A stretch of 64,000 nucleotides of DNA from BD2-11 clade cluster bacterium bin43. Lineage in GTDB: Bacteria; Gemmatimonadota; Gemmatimonadetes; Longimicrobiales; Gaopeijiaceae. This document shows positions 1,495 through 56,759 of this stretch, one piece after another; positions within the stretch are counted from its first letter, which is position 1; the number at the start of each line of letters is the position of its first letter. The stretch lies in NCBI GenBank assembly GCA_002238605.1, contig MPMR01000020.1, positions 1 to 64,000 on the forward strand, in the 5' to 3' direction. Position numbers and translations under genes: made by a program. The notes below the pieces were generated by a model. That model ran no database searches, was not told where the DNA came from, and was given only the letters and a program-made list of their open reading frames with translations.

Positions 1495-2172
1495 TCAGCC
1501 CGAAGACGAACTGCTCGAACCCGTCGACGACGAGCTGCCGCTCGAACTCGACGAGGAACCACCGGCTGCCTGACCCCCACCCCAGCCGCCGCTGCTCGAA
1601 CTCGACGACGAGCTGCTCGAACTCTCCGACGAACCGCCGGACGCTTGGCCCCCACCCTGACCGCTGTTGCTCGATGAACTGCTCGAACTCGAATTGGACG
1701 AGGAGGAACTCGACGATGAACTGCTGCTGGAACTCGATGAGGAACTGCTCGAACTCGAACTGGAGGAGGAGCTACTCGATGACGACGAACTGCTCGAACT
1801 CGAACTGGACGAAGAGCTACTCGACGACGAACTGCTGCTGGAACTCGATGAGGACGACGACGAACTGCTCGAACTCGAACTGGACGAAGAGCTACTCGAC
1901 GACGAACTGCTGCTGGAACTCGATGAGGACGACGACGAACTGCTCGAACTCGAACTGGACGAAGAGCTACCCGACGACGAACTGCTGCTGGAACTCGACG
2001 AGGAAAAACTGCTGTATCCATCGTTGGCAGGACCAACGAGATCAGCGCCGGCATACGTGCAGGCTGCCAGTTGCGTCATCCCGGCACCCAACACTCCACC
2101 CGCCAGCAGTCGAAGGAATGCCCGTCGGTCCTCGTGGTGGCCGACCTCGGAACCTGAGGTACGGTTCGTCAT
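1495..2172 (-). CDS. Tat-type lipoprotein with a long poly-serine C-terminal tract
   Basis: A 225-residue protein. The start at 2172 is supported by AGGAG about 13 bases upstream. The N-terminus has a twin-arginine stretch (DRRAFLRLLAGG) and a lipobox-like TQLAAC, so it is probably Tat-exported and lipidated. After about 50 residues nearly everything is serine, broken by a few Gly, Asn and Gly-Gln segments (GQGGGQASGG, GGWGGGQAAGG). The serine codons are mixed (AGC, AGT, TCC, TCG), so this is not simple trinucleotide slippage; selection for serine is plausible. No enzymatic domain is present. Poly-serine runs usually act as flexible linkers or spacers in surface and secreted proteins, but here the run is the terminal two thirds of the protein. 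The DPDGD lipoprotein follows in the same direction. Function unknown. Confidence 0.75.
   Translation of the reverse strand: MTNRTSGSEVGHHEDRRAFLRLLAGGVLGAGMTQLAACTYAGADLVGPANDGYSSFSSSSSSSSSSSGSSSSSSSSSSSSSSSSSSSSSSSSSSSSSSSSSSSSSSSSSSSSSSSSSSSSSSSSSSSSSSSSSSSSSSSSSSSSSSSSSSSSSSSSSSSNSSSSSSSSNSGQGGGQASGGSSESSSSSSSSSSSGGWGGGQAAGGSSSSSSGSSSSTGSSSSSSG
1804..2028 (-). repeat. 75-bp tandem repeats coding poly-serine
   Basis: The landmark actggacgaagagctac recurs at 1804, 1879 and 1954, so the serine tract was partly built by duplicating a 25-codon unit. Confidence 0.85.
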
Positions 2173-2537: not shown

Positions 2538-4430
2538 TCAGGCGATCCGCTGGCCCAGCTCGGGCGGAATGGAACCTGTCAACCCTCTGTCCGAAGTCGG
2601 CAGATGAAGGACCTGAAGGTTCGACAAACCACCGAGCTCGGGCGGCACAACACCGTGCAGGCCGTTAAACCCCAGGTCCAGACGACTTACGCGTCCACCG
2701 GAATTGGTCGTTACGCCGTACCACTGGTTGAGGGGTGCCTCGCTGAGCCAGTTGGTGTTGTTCTCCCAGTTCGGCCCGTCGGTGGCTTCGTACAGCCGCA
2801 CCAGAATCTCGCGATCCGTGAGCGGAGCGCATTCCACGCCGGTACCCGCGTGGGACGCGATTCCGCCGAGCCAGTCACGGAACGTGTCGTAGGGCGGGAC
2901 GCACAACCCGGTGTCGGCGTAGTGGAACTCTTCAAGCGGCAACTCCAGCAGCGACCGGGGAAGCGCGCCGGAGAGCAGGTTGCCGCCGACCCTGAGCGAC
3001 CTCAGGTCTGTGGCGCCCGCGAGTTCAGGGGGAAGCGGGCCGTTGAGCTGGTTGTGGTCGAAGTGCAGGTACCGCAGTCGATCGATGTCGCCGACATCGG
3101 GTGGAATCCAGCCCGTGAGGTTGTTGTTGGCGAGCGCCAACCCGATCACACGGCCCTCCGTATCGACCTCGACGCCGTGCCATTCGCCGACCGGGGCGCT
3201 GGTGAGCCAGTTGGTGGCGTTTGTCCAGTCTGGTCCCAGGGTCGTCTCGTAGAACGCTTCCAGAGCGGGCCGGTCCGGCGAATCCGAGGCTGCGGCGACG
3301 GTAACTTCGGATGTACCCGAGGCGGCGCCCGCCGAAGCCGTGATGGTCGCGGTGCCGTTGCCCGCGGCGGTGACCAGGCCGGATGTGTCCACCGTCGCCA
3401 CCGCAACGTTTCTCGACTCCCATGAGAACTGCGCGTCGGCCACCGCGACCCCGTTCGCGTCGAACGCTTCGGCTGCCAGCCTGAGTGTGTCTCCCAGGGC
3501 TGTAAGGGCCGCTTCGGCCGGCGAGACGACCACGGAGTTGGCCGCCTGCGTGACCGTCACTGCGGCCGTTCCCGAGGCGGCGCCCGCCGAAGCCGTGATC
3601 GTGGCGGCGCCGTTGCCTGCGGCGGTGACCAGGCCGGATGTGTCCACCGTCGCCACCGCCGAGTCGCTCGACTCCCATGAGAACTGCACGTCGGCCACCG
3701 CGACCCCGTTCGCGTCGAACGCTTCAGCTGCCAGCCTGACGGTGTCTCCCAAGGCTGTAAGGGTCGCTTCAGCCGGCGAGACGACCACGGAGTTGGCCGC
3801 CTGCGTGACCGTCACTGCGGACGTTCCCGAGGCGGCGCCCGCCGAAGCCGTGATGGTCGCGGTGCCGTTGGCCGCGGCGGTGACCAGGCCGGATGTGTCC
3901 ACCGTCGCCACCGCCGAGTCGCTCGACTCCCATGAGAACTGCACGTCGGCCACCGCGACCCCGTTCGCGTCGAACGCTTCGGCTGCCAGCCTGAGTGTGT
4001 CTCCCAGGACTGTAAGGGTCGCTTCAGCCGGCGAGACGACCACGGAACTGGCCGCCTGCATGACCGTCACTGCGGCCGTTCCCGACGCGCTTCCCGCCGA
4101 AGCCGTGATCGTGGCGGCGCCGTTCCCTGCGGCGGTGACCAGACCCGCGCCGTCCACCGTCGCCACTGCCGCCGCGCTCGATGCCCACGTCACCGCGGCT
4201 CCTGCAATCGCCTGACCGTTCTGGTCGAGCACGGTGGCCGTCAGCTGTACCGTCGCGCCCAATGCGGTCAGCCGGGACGTGGCCGGGCTCACTGTCACGG
4301 TTGTGGGCCGGGGAGGATCGGGCGGTGGTTGGGGCGGCGGCTCCGTGGCACCGTCGCCACAGCCGGCGGCCCAAGCCAGGACTGCGAGTACAGCGAACGG
4401 AAGGACGGGGATCCGACCGTGGCTCATCAT
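2538..4430 (-). CDS. Lipoprotein with BID_2-type Ig-like repeats and leucine-rich repeats
   Basis: A 630-residue exported protein. The signal ends WAAGC-GDG (Cys24), which predicts lipidation. A Pro-rich linker leads to four Ig-like units of about 85 residues (VVVSPAEATLTALGD..., W.SSDSAVATVD.SGLV.A.GNG.ATITAS), typical of bacterial Ig-like group 2 domains. From about residue 395 the protein switches to plant-type leucine-rich repeats (NNLTGWIPPDVG, LNGPLPPELA, GLTGSIPPELG), interrupted by two ALxxFYxxT/LYEATDGPNW caps. This layout is common in surface proteins that bind proteins or glycans. The protein stops abruptly inside an LRR (SIPPELGQRIA), so a shortened C-terminus is possible. It is a separate unit from the poly-serine gene, 365 bp downstream. 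Confidence 0.88.
   Translation of the reverse strand: MMSHGRIPVLPFAVLAVLAWAAGCGDGATEPPPQPPPDPPRPTTVTVSPATSRLTALGATVQLTATVLDQNGQAIAGAAVTWASSAAAVATVDGAGLVTAAGNGAATITASAGSASGTAAVTVMQAASSVVVSPAEATLTVLGDTLRLAAEAFDANGVAVADVQFSWESSDSAVATVDTSGLVTAAANGTATITASAGAASGTSAVTVTQAANSVVVSPAEATLTALGDTVRLAAEAFDANGVAVADVQFSWESSDSAVATVDTSGLVTAAGNGAATITASAGAASGTAAVTVTQAANSVVVSPAEAALTALGDTLRLAAEAFDANGVAVADAQFSWESRNVAVATVDTSGLVTAAGNGTATITASAGAASGTSEVTVAAASDSPDRPALEAFYETTLGPDWTNATNWLTSAPVGEWHGVEVDTEGRVIGLALANNNLTGWIPPDVGDIDRLRYLHFDHNQLNGPLPPELAGATDLRSLRVGGNLLSGALPRSLLELPLEEFHYADTGLCVPPYDTFRDWLGGIASHAGTGVECAPLTDREILVRLYEATDGPNWENNTNWLSEAPLNQWYGVTTNSGGRVSRLDLGFNGLHGVVPPELGGLSNLQVLHLPTSDRGLTGSIPPELGQRIA
3316..4080 (-). 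repeat. 255-bp tandem repeats coding Ig-like units
   Basis: The landmark cccgaggcggcgcccgccga or a close variant recurs at 3316, 3571, 3826 and 4081, a period of 255 bp (85 codons). The units are near-identical in DNA, so they are recently homogenised. Confidence 0.9.
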
Positions 4431-46447: not shown

Positions 46448-47713
46448 ATGGCATCGAACAGCCGCTCCCGCATCTCTCGCCGCACCTGGATCGCCGCTAC
46501 TTCCGGGGCCGTGGCCGCGGGCCTGATCAAGACCCAGGCCGACGCCGTCAAGCTGGTGGCGCAGGAGGCCCCGACACCGCCCGACGACCCCACCAGGGTC
46601 CCGGGCCGCTTCACCTCCGAGGTGGGCGTGCGCGCGCCCGAGGAACGCCCGCGGCGGCTCACCCGCTCGCAGACGCTCTCCAGTTCCTCGCGCACCCCGC
46701 TGCAGGAGCTGCAGGGCACCATCACGCCCGCGGACCTGCACTTCGAGCGCCATCACGCCGGCATCCCCGACATCCGCGCGGGCCGCCACGAGCTGCTGGT
46801 GCACGGCATGGTCGAGCGCCCGATGGTCTTCTCAATGGCCGACCTGAAACGCTACCCGTCGGTGGCGCGCACCTACTTCCTCGAGTGCTCCGGAAACGGG
46901 GGCGGGGCCTACAATCGCGAGCGCATGCCGGTCGAGATCAGCCCCCAGGCCCTCGACGGGCTCCTCAGCACCAGCGAGTGGGTGGGCGTCCCGGTCAGGA
47001 CCATCCTGAACGAGGTGGGCGCCGACCCGGCCGCGACCTGGATCCTGGCGGAAGGCGCCGATGCCGCGGTCATGTCGCGCAGCGTACCGATGGAAAAGAT
47101 CATGGACGACGCGCTCCTCGCCTACGGGCAGAACGGCGAGGCCATCCGTCCCGAGCAGGGCTACCCGCTGCGCCTGCTCTTGCCCGGCTGGGAGGGCAAC
47201 GCCAGCGTCAAGTGGCTGCGGCGCATCGAGGTAACCGACCGCCCGACGATGACCCGCGACGAGACCTCGCGCTACACCGATCCGCTCAAGGGCGGCCTGT
47301 CGCGCCAGTTCAGCTTCTTCATGGACGCCAAGTCCACCATCACCTTCCCCGCGTACCCGTATACGCTCCCGGAGCCGGGATGGTGGGAGGTCCAGGGGCT
47401 CGCGTGGACGGGACGCGGGCGTATTACACGCGTCGACATCAGCACCGATGGCGGCGAAAGCTGGACCGAAGCCGAGCTGCAGCAGCCCATCCTGCCCAAG
47501 TCGACGGTCCGCTTCCGGCATCTCTGGAACTGGGACGGCAGCGAAAGCCTGCTGATCAGCCGCGCGGTCGACGAGACGGGCTACGTGCAGCCGACGGTGC
47601 AGCAGCTCTGGGAGGCGCGCGGCGAGCGCACCGCGTACCACAACAACCAGCAGAGGGTGTGGAAGGTCGGGGCGAACGGCGCCGTCACCTTCGGCCTGGG
47701 AGACCTGGTATGA
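46448..47713 (+). CDS. soxC: SoxC-like sulfite dehydrogenase, molybdenum subunit, Tat-exported
   Basis: 421 residues, AAGGA before the ATG. N-terminal Tat signal SRISRRTWIAATSGAVAAG. The sulfite-oxidase fold follows, with the Mo-coordinating Cys in FLECSGNGGG, the molybdopterin-binding GWEGNASVKWLRRIEV, and the C-terminal dimerisation domain (RITRVDISTDGGESWTEA). It oxidises sulfite-level sulfur in the periplasm. The ATGA overlap with a cytochrome c gene matches the SoxCD pair. No soxAXYZB lies in the window, so a complete Sox pathway cannot be claimed; the pair could act as a stand-alone sulfite dehydrogenase. Confidence 0.9.
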   Translation: MASNSRSRISRRTWIAATSGAVAAGLIKTQADAVKLVAQEAPTPPDDPTRVPGRFTSEVGVRAPEERPRRLTRSQTLSSSSRTPLQELQGTITPADLHFERHHAGIPDIRAGRHELLVHGMVERPMVFSMADLKRYPSVARTYFLECSGNGGGAYNRERMPVEISPQALDGLLSTSEWVGVPVRTILNEVGADPAATWILAEGADAAVMSRSVPMEKIMDDALLAYGQNGEAIRPEQGYPLRLLLPGWEGNASVKWLRRIEVTDRPTMTRDETSRYTDPLKGGLSRQFSFFMDAKSTITFPAYPYTLPEPGWWEVQGLAWTGRGRITRVDISTDGGESWTEAELQQPILPKSTVRFRHLWNWDGSESLLISRAVDETGYVQPTVQQLWEARGERTAYHNNQQRVWKVGANGAVTFGLGDLV

Positions 47714-48291
47714 GGCGCACCGCGCTGGCCGTCATCGCGCTCGCGCTCGCTTGCTCGCCCTCGGGTTCCGATGGCGGAGGCGCGTCGGGCGCAAGCTCCG
47801 CGGACGGCGCCGAGCCCCCGGAGCGCTTCGGCTTCGGGAGTGCCGCGTCCGTCGAGCGCGTCGCCATGTGGGACATCGACGTGAAGCCCGACGGGGAGGG
47901 GCTGCCACCCGGCAGCGGCACCGTCGCCGAGGGCGAACAGGTCTATCTCATGCAATGCATCGCCTGCCACGGTCCCACCGGCACCGAGGGGCCCAACGAT
48001 GTCCTGGTGACCCGCGAGCCCTGGGAGGAGTGGCCGGCCGGCCGCACCGTCGGCGGCTACTGGCCCTACGCCACGACGCTCTACGACTACATCGTGAAGG
48101 CGATGCCGCAGCTGACCCCGGGCACCATGACGGCCGACGAGACCTACGCCGTGATCGCGTACATCCTCTACCTGAACGACCTCGTGCCCGAGGACGCGGT
48201 GATGAACGCCGAGACCCTGCCGGGCATCGAGATGCCGTACCGGGACCGCTTCGTGCCCGATGACCGGACGGGGGGCAGCGTTATCAGGTAG
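47710..48291 (+). CDS. Cytochrome c lipoprotein, SoxD-like electron acceptor
   Basis: 193 residues starting ATG 47710, overlapping the soxC stop. Signal with lipobox LALAC-SPSG, a Gly/Ser linker, then one class I cytochrome c domain: haem attachment CIACHG, and candidate Met ligands in KAMPQLTPGTM. The phrase PPGSGTVAEGEQVYLMQCIACHGPTG is typical of SoxD-like cytochromes. It takes electrons from the Mo subunit and could pass them on to the ba3 oxidase 8 kb away (inference). Confidence 0.9.
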   Translation: MRRTALAVIALALACSPSGSDGGGASGASSADGAEPPERFGFGSAASVERVAMWDIDVKPDGEGLPPGSGTVAEGEQVYLMQCIACHGPTGTEGPNDVLVTREPWEEWPAGRTVGGYWPYATTLYDYIVKAMPQLTPGTMTADETYAVIAYILYLNDLVPEDAVMNAETLPGIEMPYRDRFVPDDRTGGSVIR

Positions 48292-48330: not shown

Positions 48331-48591
48331 TCACGCGCCCGCCGCCGGCACCAGCAGCTTGTCGCGCAACTGGCGGACGTCCTCGCGGATGTCCTGAATG
48401 TCGATCCTGAGTGCGTCGATGTCGTGGCGGACGTCCTCCCGCAGGACGTTCATCTCGCCGCGCATCTCTTCGCGCAAATCTTCGCGCAATTCGCTCATCT
48501 CGGTGCGCATGGTGACGAAGAGAGTGACCTGGAGGCCTGTCAGCGTTACGCCGACGGCAAGAATGGCGATCAGTTCCTGGCTCAGCTTCAT
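48331..48591 (-). CDS. Membrane-anchored coiled-coil microprotein, copy 1
   Basis: 86 residues. N-terminal helix QELIAILAVGVTLTGLQV anchors it; the remainder is a charged heptad coiled coil (MRTEMSELREDLREEMRGEM) ending in the shared DIDALRIDIQDIREDVRQLR and LLVPAAGA. Good AGGAG ribosome site. Family unknown. First of four tandem paralogues reading in the same direction; ends and N-termini are almost identical, the middle differs by heptad units. Confidence 0.78.
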   Translation of the reverse strand: MKLSQELIAILAVGVTLTGLQVTLFVTMRTEMSELREDLREEMRGEMNVLREDVRHDIDALRIDIQDIREDVRQLRDKLLVPAAGA

Positions 48592-48709
48592 GCGTTCTCC
48601 TCTTTCGAGTCACGGATGGAGTCACGCAGGTGCTCAAAACCTTGATCGCCGATCGGGAGAGCCAGCCCGATTCAATGCCTGGTGCGCGGCACCTCGTATT
48701 CAATACTAA

Positions 48710-48979
48710 TCACGCGCCCGCCGCCGGGACCAGCAGTTTGTCGCGCAGCTGGCGGACGTCCTCCCGGATGTCCTGAATGTCGATCCGGAGCGCGTCGATG
48801 TCGTGGCGGATGTCCTCCCGCAGGACGTTCATCTCGCCACGCACCACGCCGATCTCGCCACGCAAGCGCGTTTCCATCCTCCCCATCTCGCTGCGCATGC
48901 TGACGAACAGAGTGACTTGGAGGCCCACCAGCGTTACGCCGACGGCAAGAATGGCGATCAATTCCTGGCTCAGCTTCAT
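48710..48979 (-). CDS. Membrane-anchored coiled-coil microprotein, copy 2
   Basis: 89 residues, same anchor and C-terminus as copy 1. The middle is the most diverged of the four (SEMGRMETRLRGEIGVVRGEM), so this copy is probably the oldest. Preceded by the same ribosome site and spacer hairpin. Unknown function. Confidence 0.78.
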   Translation of the reverse strand: MKLSQELIAILAVGVTLVGLQVTLFVSMRSEMGRMETRLRGEIGVVRGEMNVLREDIRHDIDALRIDIQDIREDVRQLRDKLLVPAAGA

Positions 48980-49097
48980 GCGTTCTCCTCTTTCGAGTCA
49001 CGGATGGAGTCACGCAGGTGCTCAGAACCTTGATCGCCGATCGGGAGAGCCAGCCCGATTCAATGCCTTGTGCGCGGCACCTCGTATTCAATAATAA

Positions 49098-49400
49098 TCA
49101 CGCGCCCGCCGCCGGGACCAGCAGTTTGTCGCGCAGCTGGCGGACGTCCTCCCGGATGTCCTGAATGTCGATCCGGACCGCGTCGATGTCGTGGCGGACG
49201 TCTTCCCGCAGGACGTTCATCTCGCCGCGCATCTCTTCGCGCAATTCGCTCATCTCGGTGCGCATCTCGCTGCGCAGTTCACTCATCTCGCTGCGTAGTT
49301 CACTCATTTCGCCGCGCATGGTGACGAACAGGGTGACCTGGAGGCCTGTCAGCGTTACGCCGACGGCGAGAATGGCGATCAGTTCCTGGCTCAGCTTCAT
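49098..49400 (-). CDS. Membrane-anchored coiled-coil microprotein, copy 3
   Basis: 100 residues, the longest copy. It has one extra SEMSELR heptad relative to copy 4 (GEMSELRSEMSELRSEMRTEM). Anchor and tail as in the other copies. The 21-bp difference keeps the coiled-coil register. Confidence 0.8.
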   Translation of the reverse strand: MKLSQELIAILAVGVTLTGLQVTLFVTMRGEMSELRSEMSELRSEMRTEMSELREEMRGEMNVLREDVRHDIDAVRIDIQDIREDVRQLRDKLLVPAAGA

Positions 49401-49638
49401 GCGTTCTCCTCTTTCGAGTCACGGATGGAGTCACGCAGGTGCTCAGAACCTTGATCGCCGATCGGGAGAGCCAGCCCGATTCAATGCCTTGTGCGCGGCA
49501 CCTCGCTTTCAATAGTGGCACCGGGGCGCGGGCGGCGCCATGGGAGAATGGGATGATGGGGGCCGGCGCAGCACCTCGCTTCTGCCCAGGAAAAAGCAGC
49601 CCCTGGACTTGAGGTCGAGCGTCAGGCAGCGATCATAA

Positions 49639-49920
49639 TCACGCGCCCGCCGCCGGGACCAGCAGTTTGTCGCGCAACTGGCGGACGTCCTCGCGGATGT
49701 CCTGAATGTCGATCCGGAGCGCGTCGATGTCGTGGCGGACGTCCTCCCGCAGGACGTTCATCTCGCCGCGCATCTCTTCGCGCAATTCGCTCATCTCGGT
49801 GCGCATCTCGCTGCGTAGTTCACTCATTTCGCCGCGCATGGTGACGAACAGGGTGACCTGGAGGCCTGTCAACGTTACGCCGACGGCGAGAATGGCGATC
49901 AGTTCCTGGCTCAGCTTCAT
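49639..49920 (-). CDS. Membrane-anchored coiled-coil microprotein, copy 4
   Basis: 93 residues. Differs from copy 3 by loss of one heptad and little else. The upstream site reads GGGGAG instead of AGGAG. It follows the stop of the large repeat protein (50093) by about 170 bp, so the array may be transcribed from that operon or from a promoter inside the spacer. Confidence 0.8.
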   Translation of the reverse strand: MKLSQELIAILAVGVTLTGLQVTLFVTMRGEMSELRSEMRTEMSELREEMRGEMNVLREDVRHDIDALRIDIQDIREDVRQLRDKLLVPAAGA

Positions 49921-50092
49921 GCGTTCTCCCCTTTCGAGTCACGGATGGAGTCACGCAGGTGCTCTAAAACCTTGATCGCCGATCGGGAGAGCCAGCCCGA
50001 TTCAATGCCTTGTGCGCGGCACCTCGTATTCAATAGTGGCACCGGGGCGCGGGCGGCGCCATGGGAGAATGGGATGATGGGGGGCAGGGTGC

Positions 50093-51043
50093 TCAGGGCG
50101 AGATGAGGGCGGAATAGCCCGTCGGATCTTTGACGGCATAGTCGTCGCCCGATATCTGCAACAGTCGTACGCGGTATTGGGCGCGGAAGGAGCGGTGGGG
50201 CACCCAGAACTCGAGAACGGGACCCGCGGAGAGGAGCCCGGCGATGATGACCTGGGTGGGAGCGGTGGCGCGGGAGCGGTACAGTTCGTAATCCGCGGCG
50301 CGCAGCGAGTCGATGGTCGGGCCTTCGATTCCCGGGATGTCGATGGGCCCTTCGATGCTGAGATGGGCGCCGATGTCGCGGGCGCCGGGAGGCAGGGTCA
50401 GTGCGACTTTGAGATAGCCGGGGTCGAGTTCCACTGAGTAGTCCTGCGCGGCGACAAAGCCGCCGACGTCGACCTCGATGCGGACCTGTCCCGGCCCGGC
50501 GGTGCGCACCCATCCGTCGGGGTCGATGGTGGCGATGGCCGGGTCGCTGGTGGTCCAGGCGATGCGGGCCGGGGCGACGCGATGTCCGTTCGGGTCGTTG
50601 GCGACCGGGAGGGTCACCTGTACCGAGTCGCCGAAGAGGAGGCGGGGGCCGCCCCAGTCGACCTCGACCACCGCGCCGCGCTGCGCGACGACGACGGAGG
50701 CGGCCGCGGTGGCGTTCCCGCTCGTGGCGGCGACCTGGGCGCGGCCGTTGCCGACCGAGACGGCCGTGCCGGTCGGGTCCACCGTTACGACCGACGGGTC
50801 GCTGGTCGACCAGGTGACGGGCGCGGCCGGCATGACCTGTCCGTTCTGGTCGTGGATAGTCGCCTGGAAACCGACCCGTTCCCGCAGCGCGACCAGGTTC
50901 ACGGCGGCGGGGACCACCACAGCGCTGGTCGCGACGGGCGGCTCCACCACGTCGTCCGCGCCACACCCCAGGGCGAGGGCGGCAGCGAGCAGGAGCGTAA
51001 GACGGTATTGGGTTCGATATTGCAAATATAAGCGTGCTGTCAC
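50093..51043 (-). CDS. Alternative reading: independent lipoprotein with Ig-like domains
   Basis: If GTG 51043 or a nearby codon is used, a product of about 316 residues results. It has a lipobox (LALGC), DDVVEPP linker, two Ig-like units (VTWSTSDPSVVTVDPTG, ARIAWTTSDPAIATIDPDG) and a unique C-terminal domain (YSVELDPGYLKVALTLPPG). The preceding DNA from about 51020 to 51090 is much richer in A and T than its surroundings. No strong ribosome site was found, so this is the less certain of the two readings of this frame. Confidence 0.5.
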   Translation of the reverse strand: MTARLYLQYRTQYRLTLLLAAALALGCGADDVVEPPVATSAVVVPAAVNLVALRERVGFQATIHDQNGQVMPAAPVTWSTSDPSVVTVDPTGTAVSVGNGRAQVAATSGNATAAASVVVAQRGAVVEVDWGGPRLLFGDSVQVTLPVANDPNGHRVAPARIAWTTSDPAIATIDPDGWVRTAGPGQVRIEVDVGGFVAAQDYSVELDPGYLKVALTLPPGARDIGAHLSIEGPIDIPGIEGPTIDSLRAADYELYRSRATAPTQVIIAGLLSAGPVLEFWVPHRSFRAQYRVRLLQISGDDYAVKDPTGYSALISP

Positions 51044-54000
51044 GCGATATGGTTTTTGTAAGTGATTTGTCGATCGATACCCATTTCCTCTTGCGATTGG
51101 GGGAACGAACCCGCACGCGTCATACCGCCGCCGGTGCCGCGGGCGAGGGCGGCGTGCGCGGACGGTCGAGGGGAGTGCGGGAGCCGGGTGAGGGACGGCG
51201 TCGGGTGACGGAGCAGGAACGGCGGGTTCCGGGGCGGTTGGAAGGAAGATGGCGGCGTGCGGAATGGCCGGAGGCAAGGCGAGCTCATCGCCGGAGGCTG
51301 CCTTCGCGGCCGAGGCGCCAGCCGTACCTCCGGCCGGGGCGCTACCCCCCACCCCACACCGCCCCTCCCCGCGGCCGCAGCGGGCGACCCAGGAGAGCGC
51401 GTCGCCCAGGTCGTAGGTGCGGTCACGGTTTCCGAGGCGGTCGAGGGCCAGGGCCTGCACCGCGTCCAGTTCGTGTTCGCCGAACACGGCCGATATGGCC
51501 GCCTCGACCGGCAGGTCCTCCCCGACCAGCAGGCTGTCGACCACCACGACCGACCGGGGGGTCGCACCACCTTCCACCCGGATGTGAATCGTGTCCACGT
51601 AGGTGCCCGGGCCGAGGTCGCCGGGGGTGCGGCGCACCACCACCCCGCCCCCCGCCACCCCACGCGCCACGACCAGTTCGAGCCACGACGACCCTCCATG
51701 CGCGGCCGTCCAGGTGGCCGCGCGCGACCCGTACCCCCCCACCTCCACGACCAGAGTGTCCACCAGGGGCTGGGTCACCCCCGCCAGGGTGGCCGCCGCC
51801 CCGCCCCGCCCCGCGACCGTCACGGTGGTCGCGGCCGCCACCCGCAGGGAGTCCACCAGCGTGGCGGGAAGCACGTACGGCCCGTCTCCCGCGACCCGGA
51901 TGGTGTCCAGGTACAGTCCGGCCGCGAGGCCGTCCACCCGCCGGGTCCACCGGACCTGGCCCGGGCCCGTTCCGGCCGAGTCGACGAGCTCCAGCCACGC
52001 GGAACCCCCGTGGGTCGCGCGCCACGCCACCTGCGCGGCCGCGGGCCCTGCGACCGCCACCTCGGCGGAGTCGGCCACCGCCCCGGTCGCGCCCACCGGC
52101 ACCTCCGTATACCGGCCCGCCGCGGGGAACGCCAGCGTGTTCACCGCCCGCACCACCAGCCGAACCGGCAGCACCGCCCCGCCCGCGGCCGCGTCCGCCC
52201 CGGCAACCACCACCGTCACCGTGTCCACGTACTCCCCGGGCGCGAGGTCGCCGGGGTCGATCCGCCACGCGATCGAATCGAGGGCGCCGCCCTGCGCGCG
52301 CGTCAGCCCGAGCCATCCCGCCCGGGCGCCGGCCGCGGTCCACCGCGCCTCCGGCCACCCGGTGCCGTAGATGCGAACCGGCGCGCCGCCGTCCACCGGG
52401 TCGCCGCCCCGGGCGACCACCACGCGCCGCTCCCCCCGCGTCTCCGCCACCAGCGGCGCGGCCGCCGGCAGCGCGAACGCGCCCCGGCCGTGGGTCGCGG
52501 CCACCATGACGCCCGCGGCCGGCTCCACCGCCAGGTCGAACACCGCGACCATCGGCAACCCCTCGCCCACGCGGGCCCAGCTCCCGCCGGCCTGAGAAGA
52601 AAACACGCCCAGGTCCGTCCCGATGTAGATCCGGGACAGGTCGGACGGGTCGAGCAGCACCGTGTTGACCGGATGATCGGGCAGGTCGCCGGTGATGTCG
52701 CTCCAGGACGTCCCGTAATCGCGGGTCGCGAACACGTGGCCCGTGCCGAAACCCGAGAACACCGCGTACGCGGTCGCGGGATCGTGCGGATGCACCGCGA
52801 TGTCGCTCACGTAGCGCATCGGCAGCGGCCCCGAGACCGTGCGCCACGACCCGCCGCCGTCCCGGGTCACCACGACATCCGACTCCGAGGTCCCGAAATA
52901 GACCACGCGCGCGTCCGAGCGGCTGGGCGCGATCGCCGAGATCCGCCCCTCGGGGGCCTCCGCGACGGGCTCCCAGCGCCCGCCGCCGTCGACCGTCCGG
53001 TACAGCCGCTCGGTGCCGAAGTAGAGCACGTCCGGGTCGAAGGGATCCATCACCAGCGGAGGAATGAAGAGCGCGTCGTCGCCGAGGTCGATGCCGTAGC
53101 CGCGGAACCGGAAGGACCCGCCGCCGTCGGAGCGCCTCGGCCCCCCGGTCCCGCCCCGCCACTGGGTCTCGGCCCACCTGCGGTCGAAGCGCGGGTCGAG
53201 CGCCGTGAACCCGCCGTCCCCGCCCATCACCTGCGGCCACGACAGATCGCCGTCCCCCTGGACGGTCCCGTTGTCCTGGGTGCCCGCCAGCACCGAGATC
53301 GCCTCCGCGCGCGGATGGATCGAGACCCCGGCGTAGAACTGGGTCAGGGAGAGGTTGGTGTTGAGGCTCTCCCAGGTGTCGCCCCGGTCCGGGCTCCGGT
53401 AGACGCCCCCGTCGTTGCCCGCGAGCAGCATGTCCGGCGCGCGCGCATCCACGGTCAGGACGTGCTGGTCGACGTGGATGTCCACGCGGCCGATGGTCGA
53501 GAAGGTCTCCCCGCCGTCCACGGAGCGATACAGCAGCACGGCCCCGAAGTACACCACGTCGGGGTCGGTGGGATGCACGGCCAGCGACTGGTTGTACCAG
53601 CACTGTCCGCAGCGGACGCCCCCTGCGGACGCCCGGGTCCAGGAATCGCCTCCGTCGGAGCTCCGCGCCATCACCACGCCCCCGGACTCCCCGGCCGAGA
53701 GATAGAGGATGTCCGGACTGGAGCGCGACTGCGCCAACTGCGCGCGCCAGGGCAGGACCCCGAGCCCCACATCCACCTCCCGCCAGGTCAGCCCGCCGTC
53801 GCCGGACCGGTGCAGGGTGGCGTGGCCCGTCTTCTCCTCCCCTTCGGCGAGCGCCGCGAACAGCACCTCGCGGTCGCCGGCGCGCACGAGCACATCCGTG
53901 ACCACGCCGTCGAGCACCTTCGTCCAGCCGCCCCCCGAATCGGTCGAGATGAAGAGCCCGCCCTCGGTCGCAGCGTAAACCGTGGTCGCGTCCAGCGTGC

Positions 54001-54625
54001 CGGCGGTCGCCGAGTCGACCACGATGCGCGAGATGGTTGTCCCGCCCATCGGCCCGGTGAAGACGCCCTCGCCCAGCCGGGTCCAGCTTTCGCCCCCGTC
54101 GGAGGAGCGCAGGACGCCGCAGCCGTAGTAGCTGTCGGCCGAAAAGTGCTGCTCCCCGGTGCCCGCGTAGACGATGTCCGGGTCGACCGGGTCGAGCGCC
54201 AGCGCGCCCATCGCGAGCGAGCACTGCTGGTCGGTGAGCGGCCGCCAGGAGGCTCCGGCGTCCTCCGTGCGCCACACCCCGCCCTGGGCCCCGCCCGCGA
54301 AGATCACGTCCATGTTCGCGGGATGGAGGACTACCGCCGATACCCGCCCCGTGGAGGTGGTGTAGGACTCGATGATCTCGGGTCCGAGCGGCTTCCAGGC
54401 ACCCGGGGTCCCCGCGCGCGCGGCGGCGGCGCCGGGCGGAAGGCGAAGAACCGCGCGCCGGAGGACGCTTTCACGGGCGACCTGGAGCCGCGCGCCCCAT
54501 CCGGGCACGCCGGGGGAGCGGCGCTGCTCGAGGAAGAACTCCCAGCGTCCGCCGGGATCGTCCTGCTGCGCCGAGGCCGCCGACGCCCAGGCAAGGAGCG
54601 CGACGGCGGCCAGGATCCTCGACAA
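50093..54625 (-). CDS. BNR/Asp-box propeller protein fused in frame to an Ig-like lipoprotein
   Basis: One uninterrupted frame of 1510 codons. Signal MSRILAAVALLAWASAASAQ. Residues 90-700 are a beta-propeller of Asp-box units (SSDGGESWTRLG, STDSGGGWTKV, RSVDGGETFSTI, ATRDYGTSWSDI), as in sialidase-like or Ycf48-like exported proteins. Then three Ig-like units of about 90 residues (WTAAGARAGWLGL, DLAPGEYVDTVTV) and a short dockerin-like stretch (ALALDRLGNRDRTYDLGDALSWV). After a Pro/Arg-rich low-complexity stretch a second signal-like segment appears (TLLLAAALALGC-GADD), leading into two BID_2-type Ig domains. The second half is probably a separate gene that shares the frame, because the linking DNA is AT-rich and promoter-like. 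Confidence 0.8.
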   Translation of the reverse strand: MSRILAAVALLAWASAASAQQDDPGGRWEFFLEQRRSPGVPGWGARLQVARESVLRRAVLRLPPGAAAARAGTPGAWKPLGPEIIESYTTSTGRVSAVVLHPANMDVIFAGGAQGGVWRTEDAGASWRPLTDQQCSLAMGALALDPVDPDIVYAGTGEQHFSADSYYGCGVLRSSDGGESWTRLGEGVFTGPMGGTTISRIVVDSATAGTLDATTVYAATEGGLFISTDSGGGWTKVLDGVVTDVLVRAGDREVLFAALAEGEEKTGHATLHRSGDGGLTWREVDVGLGVLPWRAQLAQSRSSPDILYLSAGESGGVVMARSSDGGDSWTRASAGGVRCGQCWYNQSLAVHPTDPDVVYFGAVLLYRSVDGGETFSTIGRVDIHVDQHVLTVDARAPDMLLAGNDGGVYRSPDRGDTWESLNTNLSLTQFYAGVSIHPRAEAISVLAGTQDNGTVQGDGDLSWPQVMGGDGGFTALDPRFDRRWAETQWRGGTGGPRRSDGGGSFRFRGYGIDLGDDALFIPPLVMDPFDPDVLYFGTERLYRTVDGGGRWEPVAEAPEGRISAIAPSRSDARVVYFGTSESDVVVTRDGGGSWRTVSGPLPMRYVSDIAVHPHDPATAYAVFSGFGTGHVFATRDYGTSWSDITGDLPDHPVNTVLLDPSDLSRIYIGTDLGVFSSQAGGSWARVGEGLPMVAVFDLAVEPAAGVMVAATHGRGAFALPAAAPLVAETRGERRVVVARGGDPVDGGAPVRIYGTGWPEARWTAAGARAGWLGLTRAQGGALDSIAWRIDPGDLAPGEYVDTVTVVVAGADAAAGGAVLPVRLVVRAVNTLAFPAAGRYTEVPVGATGAVADSAEVAVAGPAAAQVAWRATHGGSAWLELVDSAGTGPGQVRWTRRVDGLAAGLYLDTIRVAGDGPYVLPATLVDSLRVAAATTVTVAGRGGAAATLAGVTQPLVDTLVVEVGGYGSRAATWTAAHGGSSWLELVVARGVAGGGVVVRRTPGDLGPGTYVDTIHIRVEGGATPRSVVVVDSLLVGEDLPVEAAISAVFGEHELDAVQALALDRLGNRDRTYDLGDALSWVARCGRGEGRCGVGGSAPAGGTAGASAAKAASGDELALPPAIPHAAIFLPTAPEPAVPAPSPDAVPHPAPALPSTVRARRPRPRHRRRYDACGFVPPIARGNGYRSTNHLQKPYRVTARLYLQYRTQYRLTLLLAAALALGCGADDVVEPPVATSAVVVPAAVNLVALRERVGFQATIHDQNGQVMPAAPVTWSTSDPSVVTVDPTGTAVSVGNGRAQVAATSGNATAAASVVVAQRGAVVEVDWGGPRLLFGDSVQVTLPVANDPNGHRVAPARIAWTTSDPAIATIDPDGWVRTAGPGQVRIEVDVGGFVAAQDYSVELDPGYLKVALTLPPGARDIGAHLSIEGPIDIPGIEGPTIDSLRAADYELYRSRATAPTQVIIAGLLSAGPVLEFWVPHRSFRAQYRVRLLQISGDDYAVKDPTGYSALISP

Positions 54626-56286: not shown

Positions 56287-56619
56287 CTAACCTGGCTCGT
56301 CACCGAGACGACCGCGCATGTAGCCCTCCAGGTGAGCGATGTCCTCGCGAACGCGGGAGATCGCCTCAGCGTTGTGGAAGATCGCCTCAGCGTTGCGGGA
56401 GATCGCTTCAGCGTTGCGGGCGATCGCGTCAGCGTTGCGGCCGATCAGTTCAGCGTTGCGGTCGATCCGGTCTCCCAAACGAGTCTCCATCGCACTCATT
56501 TCGGATCGGATGAACCCGTAGAAGCCTCCAAGCGCCGCCAGCAGCATGATGAACTGTCCCCACTCCTTCATCCATCCCATCGGACCTGACGGCTGCCCCG
56601 CGGTATCGGGATCGATCAT
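56287..56619 (-). CDS. Membrane protein with RNAEAIS heptad repeats
   Basis: 110 residues from ATG 56619, with GGAGG nine bases upstream. A short polar start precedes one membrane helix (EWGQFIMLLAALGGFYGFI), then a coiled coil built of seven-residue units (RNAELIG, RNADAIA, RNAEAIS, RNAEAIF, HNAEAIS). The design, an anchored helix plus heptads, resembles the four-copy array at 48.3-49.9 kb though the sequences differ. Function unknown; such proteins may space or cluster partners at the membrane. Confidence 0.8.
   Translation of the reverse strand: MIDPDTAGQPSGPMGWMKEWGQFIMLLAALGGFYGFIRSEMSAMETRLGDRIDRNAELIGRNADAIARNAEAISRNAEAIFHNAEAISRVREDIAHLEGYMRGRLGDEPG
56366..56470 (-). repeat. Five 21-bp repeats coding heptads
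   Basis: tcagcgttg recurs at 56366, 56387, 56408, 56429 and 56450, exactly 21 bp apart, each unit coding one heptad. Confidence 0.9.
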
Positions 56620-56759
56620 GTGCAATGCCTCCGGTGCGTTCCCCCAAAAATCTGGCGCGCAACGCCCGAAACCGCCACCGTGGTTTTCCTTGACGGACGG
56701 GGGGACGACCCGCTCCGGCGGGCAACCTGCATACGAAGGCGAAAAGAGCGAGGTAGACG

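Follow-up and report, generated by a model that had tools for sequence, protein, structure and literature searches.

What could a bacterium gain from four neighbouring copies of a very short gene, each for a membrane anchor followed by a coiled coil whose length changes from copy to copy? The question is raised by four tandem minus-strand ORFs in the window, the 64,000-nucleotide stretch of DNA analysed here. A first-pass annotation had described a four-copy array with products of 86, 89, 100 and 93 residues, and this is confirmed by the ORF list (93, 100, 89 and 86 aa) and by Tandem Repeats Finder, which detects the four genes as a repeat of 388-bp period (score 1699). Copies 2–4 are 89–93% identical to copy 1 along the repeat unit; such identity over hundreds of bases excludes a chance origin. 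The locus comprises the following features (middles are given as unit lengths in residues):

49639..49920, minus strand: copy 1, 93-aa anchored coiled-coil protein, middle 7-4-7-4-7
49098..49400, minus strand: copy 2, 100 aa, middle 7-7-4-7-4-7
49272..49313, minus strand: tandem 21-bp units GEMSELR and SEMSELR in copy 2, one of them absent from copy 1
48710..48979, minus strand: copy 3, 89 aa, middle 11-7-7, the most divergent middle
48331..48591, minus strand: copy 4, 86 aa, middle 7-4-4-7, the last copy, adjoining the convergent cytochrome c gene
49921..50038, minus strand: leader of copy 1, with a conserved ~80-bp core and a ribosome-binding site
49401..49518, minus strand: leader of copy 2
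48980..49097, minus strand: leader of copy 3
48592..48709, minus strand: leader of copy 4
49564..49638, minus strand: 75 bp joining copy 1 to copy 2, with a counterpart only at the copy 1/2 junction of genome G009
46448..47713, plus strand: flanking molybdopterin sulfite-oxidase-like gene (Oxidored_molyb, Mo-co_dimer), convergent, which fixes the syntenic locus
47720..48291, plus strand: flanking cytochrome c gene, convergent with the array, start approximate
50093..54625, minus strand: flank upstream of the array, Sortilin/VPS10-repeat and Ig-like (Big_2) protein region, listed as a single ORF, possibly two genes

Each protein consists, in this order, of an anchor, a variable middle and a constant tail. 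The four copies have in common a 29-residue membrane anchor (MKLSQELIAILAVGVTLTGLQVTLFVTMR in copy 1), a 35-residue tail (EDVRHDIDALRIDIQDIREDVRQLRDKLLVPAAGA) and a leader of ~118 bp that contains a ribosome-binding site. The anchor and tail are thus as constant as first described, whereas the spacers, also taken to be shared, vary (118, 118 and 238 bp), and the array, with the first leader counted in, ends near 50038 rather than at the 50084 originally given for a span starting at 48331. Elsewhere in the window, 6 kb from the array, an unrelated 112-aa anchored heptad-repeat protein (RNAEAIS-like; 56287-56625, minus strand) contains a 21-bp array at 56353-56461 inside its ORF, and its matches in the genus differ in length. 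A 225-aa ORF (1495-2172, minus strand) is mostly serine behind a Tat-like start, and near-identical tandem repeats of 273 bp and 255 bp (253-1208 and 3316-4171) encode repeated Ig-like-looking domains.

The reading frame of the array is under purifying selection. Between genomes, pN/pS in frame is 0.22 in the anchor and 0.14 in the tail; the values are 0.93–4.2 in the shifted sense frames and 1.1–8.0 in the antisense frames, bar one at 0.37–0.54, whose third positions partly coincide with those of the sense frame. Copies within a genome yield 0.15–0.20, and nearly all copies in the arrays of the genus have open frames, with leader or coupled starts retained.

The leader is conserved as well. 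Divergence between genomes is 0.052 in its ~80-bp core versus 0.202 at the ribosome-site end, the core is more conserved than synonymous sites, and it is accompanied by an inverted repeat (ATCGAG-N8-CTCGAT) with one compensated change, from A-T to G-C, only in G000, the genome of the window. Core conservation and inverted repeat are the arguments for regarding the whole repeat as a non-coding regulatory leader element with incidental ORFs. This is scarcely credible: the constraint is specific to the reading frame, the indels are unit-wise and in frame, the leader has no match in Rfam and folds no more stably than shuffled sequences, and some downstream copies in relatives are wholly devoid of it. 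As a part of the array, given the folding result and the empty Rfam search, the leader is as likely to be a promoter or operator as an RNA structure; no sigma-70-like promoter or terminator was found, a negative that says little for this phylum. In G000 it is confined to the array, with chance-level short matches elsewhere in the genome. The leaderless copies of the relatives begin 5 or 23 bp past the previous stop or overlap it, an arrangement that suggests coupled translation.

The variable middles are assembled from three types of unit, with 7 (xEMxxLR), 4 (xEMR) or 11 (GEMGSMETRLR type) residues. Both the 7+4 and the 11 units are hendecads with a core spacing of 3-4-4; a 4-residue stutter that turns a heptad into a hendecad is standard coiled-coil behaviour (PMC4786415). 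Of 25 copies from the genus, 24 have middles that parse wholly into these units, by a grammar composed after inspection of the sequences. The stronger evidence is the hydrophobic core: in 23 of the 25 middles, M, L, I or V recurs every 3 or 4 residues without a break, versus 0.00 expected in residue shuffles. Across the genus, middles have 18, 22, 25, 29, 36, 40, 43, 47 or 69 residues and whole proteins 82–133, with length steps of both 7 and 11 residues; the 133-aa copy of a relative has five hendecads in succession. The earlier proposal that length varies by whole heptads therefore applies in part. Copy 2 departs from copy 1 by a tandem duplication of exactly 21 bp (93 to 100 aa), and the 86- and 93-aa copies differ by a net 7 residues, whereas the 89-aa copy (11+7+7) is 4 residues off the 93-aa copy, which is no heptad step, and hendecads occur alongside heptads. 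The accompanying proposal that the indels keep the coiled-coil register agrees well with the 7- and 11-residue steps and the unbroken cores.

Along the middles, the hydrophobic core is bordered by acidic residues on one side and by basic residues on the other, a pattern that parallel pairing would predict. Could these segments instead be amphipathic 11-mer helices of the apolipoprotein kind, resting on the membrane? Their 11-residue periodicity points that way, as do weak hits to apolipoprotein A in Pfam and PDB. Such helices are nevertheless highly improbable here: the apolar stripe is narrow, its acidic and basic flanks are unlike those of class-A helices, heptads are intermixed, and the matches are of low complexity and far below the curated cut-off.

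A coiled coil is also what the predicted structure suggests. The AlphaFold monomer is a single continuous helix (residues 2–87, mean pLDDT 92), which, together with the continuous 3-4 core in 23 of the 25 middles, fits the coiled-coil structural class; the chain terminates in a low-confidence VPAAGA, and a fold search with the predicted helix gave no match. Residues 8–26 form the only hydrophobic segment. The N-terminal transmembrane anchor would continue as one helix into the C-terminal coiled-coil rod of a single-pass (bitopic) inner-membrane protein. In relatives of the same architecture, K/R residues are absent before the anchor and number 2–5 after it; by the positive-inside rule, these charges on the coil side indicate a cytoplasmic coil. 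The array proteins carry a lysine (K2) N-terminal to the anchor, which makes their own topology ambiguous; judged by their relatives, the rod is probably located on the cytoplasmic rather than the surface side.

The first-pass annotation had been reminded of heptad-repeat surface or anchor proteins; the surface analogy is doubtful, given that the positive charges of the relatives flank the anchor on the coil side. Surface-exposed, length-variable rods, similar to periscope or M proteins, could vary the cell surface towards host or phages; the number of heptads is documented to vary among the coiled-coil proteins of one host-associated bacterium (PMC3472980), and contig titles suggest that the genomes are host-associated MAGs. 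For the relatives, these titles name metagenome-assembled Gemmatimonadetes, some labelled Gammaproteobacteria, and going by sample names the members of the genus are apparently sponge symbionts. Surface rods are nonetheless very unlikely: no cleavable signal or sorting features are seen in the array proteins, a short rod with an inner-membrane anchor would hardly span the envelope, the charge pattern of the relatives favours a cytoplasmic coil, and two near-identical genomes (G003 and G010) have identical arrays.

Ten of the 11 genomes of the genus have an array of 1 to ~6 copies at one syntenic locus, flanked on one side by the VPS10/Ig-like gene and on the other by the cytochrome c and sulfite-oxidase-like genes, which are convergent with it. 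The copy numbers are uncertain, because the genomes seem to be metagenome assemblies, where tandem repeats are prone to collapse or to interrupt contigs. There are four copies in G000, one in G001, two each in G003, G007, G008 and G010, and three in G009; at contig edges, G002 has at least four, including a partial one, and G005 at least two. G004 has two copies on one contig and four on another, ~6 in all, since the two contigs have an overlap of exactly 60 bp within the array. Assembly from short metagenomic reads cannot be relied on in tandem repeats, and several of the arrays are located at the end of a contig. Spacers in the relatives measure 5, 23, ~109, ~236 and 561 bp, in addition to a 1-bp overlap. 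G006 retains a tail remnant alone (L050:723-860), where an apparent deletion of several kb also removed the upstream gene; either this genome can do without the array or its contig has been assembled wrongly. Copy number had been expected to differ between relatives, and between species it does; neither constant copy number nor broken frames were found across species, the loss in G006 aside.

Among 395 genomes sampled from the phylum, no match of comparable strength occurs outside the genus, only distant anchor-plus-coil proteins (E 2e-17 or weaker). In other genera of the family, other genes follow the same sulfite-oxidase gene and no array is found; a literature search returned no paper on such an array in Gemmatimonadota. 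The array is best read as an expansion, specific to the genus, of an anchor-plus-coil family that has no name. Nothing supports an origin from phages or mobile elements: no relatives were found in phages or in viral contigs, and the locus is syntenic.

Within the genus, the copies bear signs of exchange. In trees of the constant parts, all four G000 copies cluster (100/98), as do the three copies of G009 (82/87), and the copies of G007, G008 and G010 intermix between genomes. G000 and G009 share the 75-bp copy 1/2 junction, which is absent from the rest of the arrays; its alignment scores 77, against at most 33 in 1000 shuffles. As the junction is common to both and the genes yet cluster by genome, the duplication appears to predate the split and the genes have been homogenised since, which indicates concerted evolution. 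G003 and G010 are 99.8% identical over 19.7 kb with zero differences in the array, so that no change is visible at this short distance. Diversification of length by recombination, as suggested earlier, is consequently consistent with the unit-wise changes and the signs of exchange, but not seen within a species.

Does this turnover serve a purpose? Neutral tandem duplication, in which recombination grows and shrinks the array without benefit, one copy works and the rest undergo birth and death, is a possible, though considerably less probable, answer than the favoured reading set out below. It accommodates a copy number ranging from a remnant or one to ~6 without obvious pattern, the other genera that lack the array beside the same flanking genes, and the lengths of copies within a genome, which tend to differ, but not significantly so (1 equal pair vs 3.4 expected, P = 0.10). 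It is less compatible with intact copies that keep anchor, tail and core at a within-genome pN/pS of 0.15–0.20, and with almost every copy being open and keeping its leader or coupled start, which gene conversion could also bring about.

The reading that we favour, and consider probable, is that the genes encode short proteins of the inner membrane that pair in parallel as coiled-coil rods of differing length and would act as a membrane-tethered scaffold. Equal helices could pair in parallel by virtue of the constant tail and of the acidic and basic edges beside the core, and the count of 7- and 11-residue units in the middle would set the length of the rod. Units and genes are gained, lost and homogenised, probably by slippage, unequal crossing-over and gene conversion, while selection retains anchor, tail and core during this turnover. 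The oligomeric rod or scaffold could then fix the distance to a partner or to the membrane, with several lengths per cell. As a bolder extension, which we regard as improbable, rod length might be an identity label: because anchor and tail are the same in all copies, pairing in register all the way from membrane to tip would require chains of equal length, and each gene would yield homotypic rods, that is, length-coded spacers. The locus in any case offers a natural series in about ten species, in which coil length shifts by whole heptads or hendecads with anchor and tail fixed. It makes testable whether cells use rod length, how coils of mixed lengths are sorted, and how tandem exchange keeps the coil register.

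The array marks a bacterial anchor-plus-coil family without a name. Pfam and PHROGs searches returned low-complexity coil matches only, and a PDB sequence search weak apolipoprotein and coil matches; membership in the apolipoprotein family PF01442 was rejected (24.9 bits vs a cut-off of 90, different charge distribution). The best Pfam match, in the coil region, is PF07798 (DUF1640/CCDC90; 4.3e-07, 30.4 bits vs a curated cut-off of 33.5). Like DUF1640/CCDC90-MCUR1, which is found in prokaryotes and mitochondria, the array proteins have a membrane-anchored coiled-coil stalk. DUF1640 proteins possess a head domain and carry their anchor at the C-terminal end, in contrast to the headless array proteins with their N-terminal anchor; in the latter, no C-terminal transmembrane anchor follows the coil, the only hydrophobic segment being 8–26. 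A beta-layer motif at the start of the C-terminal stalk, in addition to a transmembrane domain, characterises DUF1640 (PMC4786415, PMC7519068), and this motif ([aliphatic]-A-T-K-[polar]-[DE], PMC4786415) was not seen in 25 aligned array sequences. With a score under the cut-off and a different layout, membership in PF07798 was rejected.

In the same genomes, unnamed anchor-plus-hendecad proteins resemble the array proteins in their anchor motif (DLIAVLAVGVALAGLQ), behind which coiled-coil repeats of 11 residues follow; unlike the array, they are encoded by single, longer genes and have another tail (RFLEERAFLG). One of them is the single-copy paralogue of G000 (C19:93982-94443, L051), whose homologues in other genomes of the genus are open frames of 154–259 aa. 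Length variation through repeats also links the array to group A streptococcal M protein and periscope proteins, for which intragenic recombination between repeats is described in a passage of PMC9704523 that cites Hollingshead 1987. Those proteins are large and surface-located, whereas the array proteins have 82–133 aa, an N-terminal anchor and no distal binding domain.

The closest precedent by behaviour, as an analogy and not by descent, is RepMP1/DUF16 of Mycoplasma pneumoniae. Membership was rejected for want of a sequence match: no DUF16 hit is listed for the array proteins in a Pfam scan with E up to 10, the list for one of them covering the best 25 of 27 matches. The DUF16 genes are present in many copies in one genome and combine a conserved region with a coiled-coil region, in which the count of 21-nt heptad repeats varies from gene to gene and from strain to strain, and copies exchange sequence; the same paper gives no known function (PMC3472980). 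Multiple gene copies with heptad-number variation in the coil are likewise found in the array. The DUF16 genes are dispersed over the chromosome, whereas the array is compact at one locus, where each copy has an N-terminal anchor and varies in hendecads as well as heptads.
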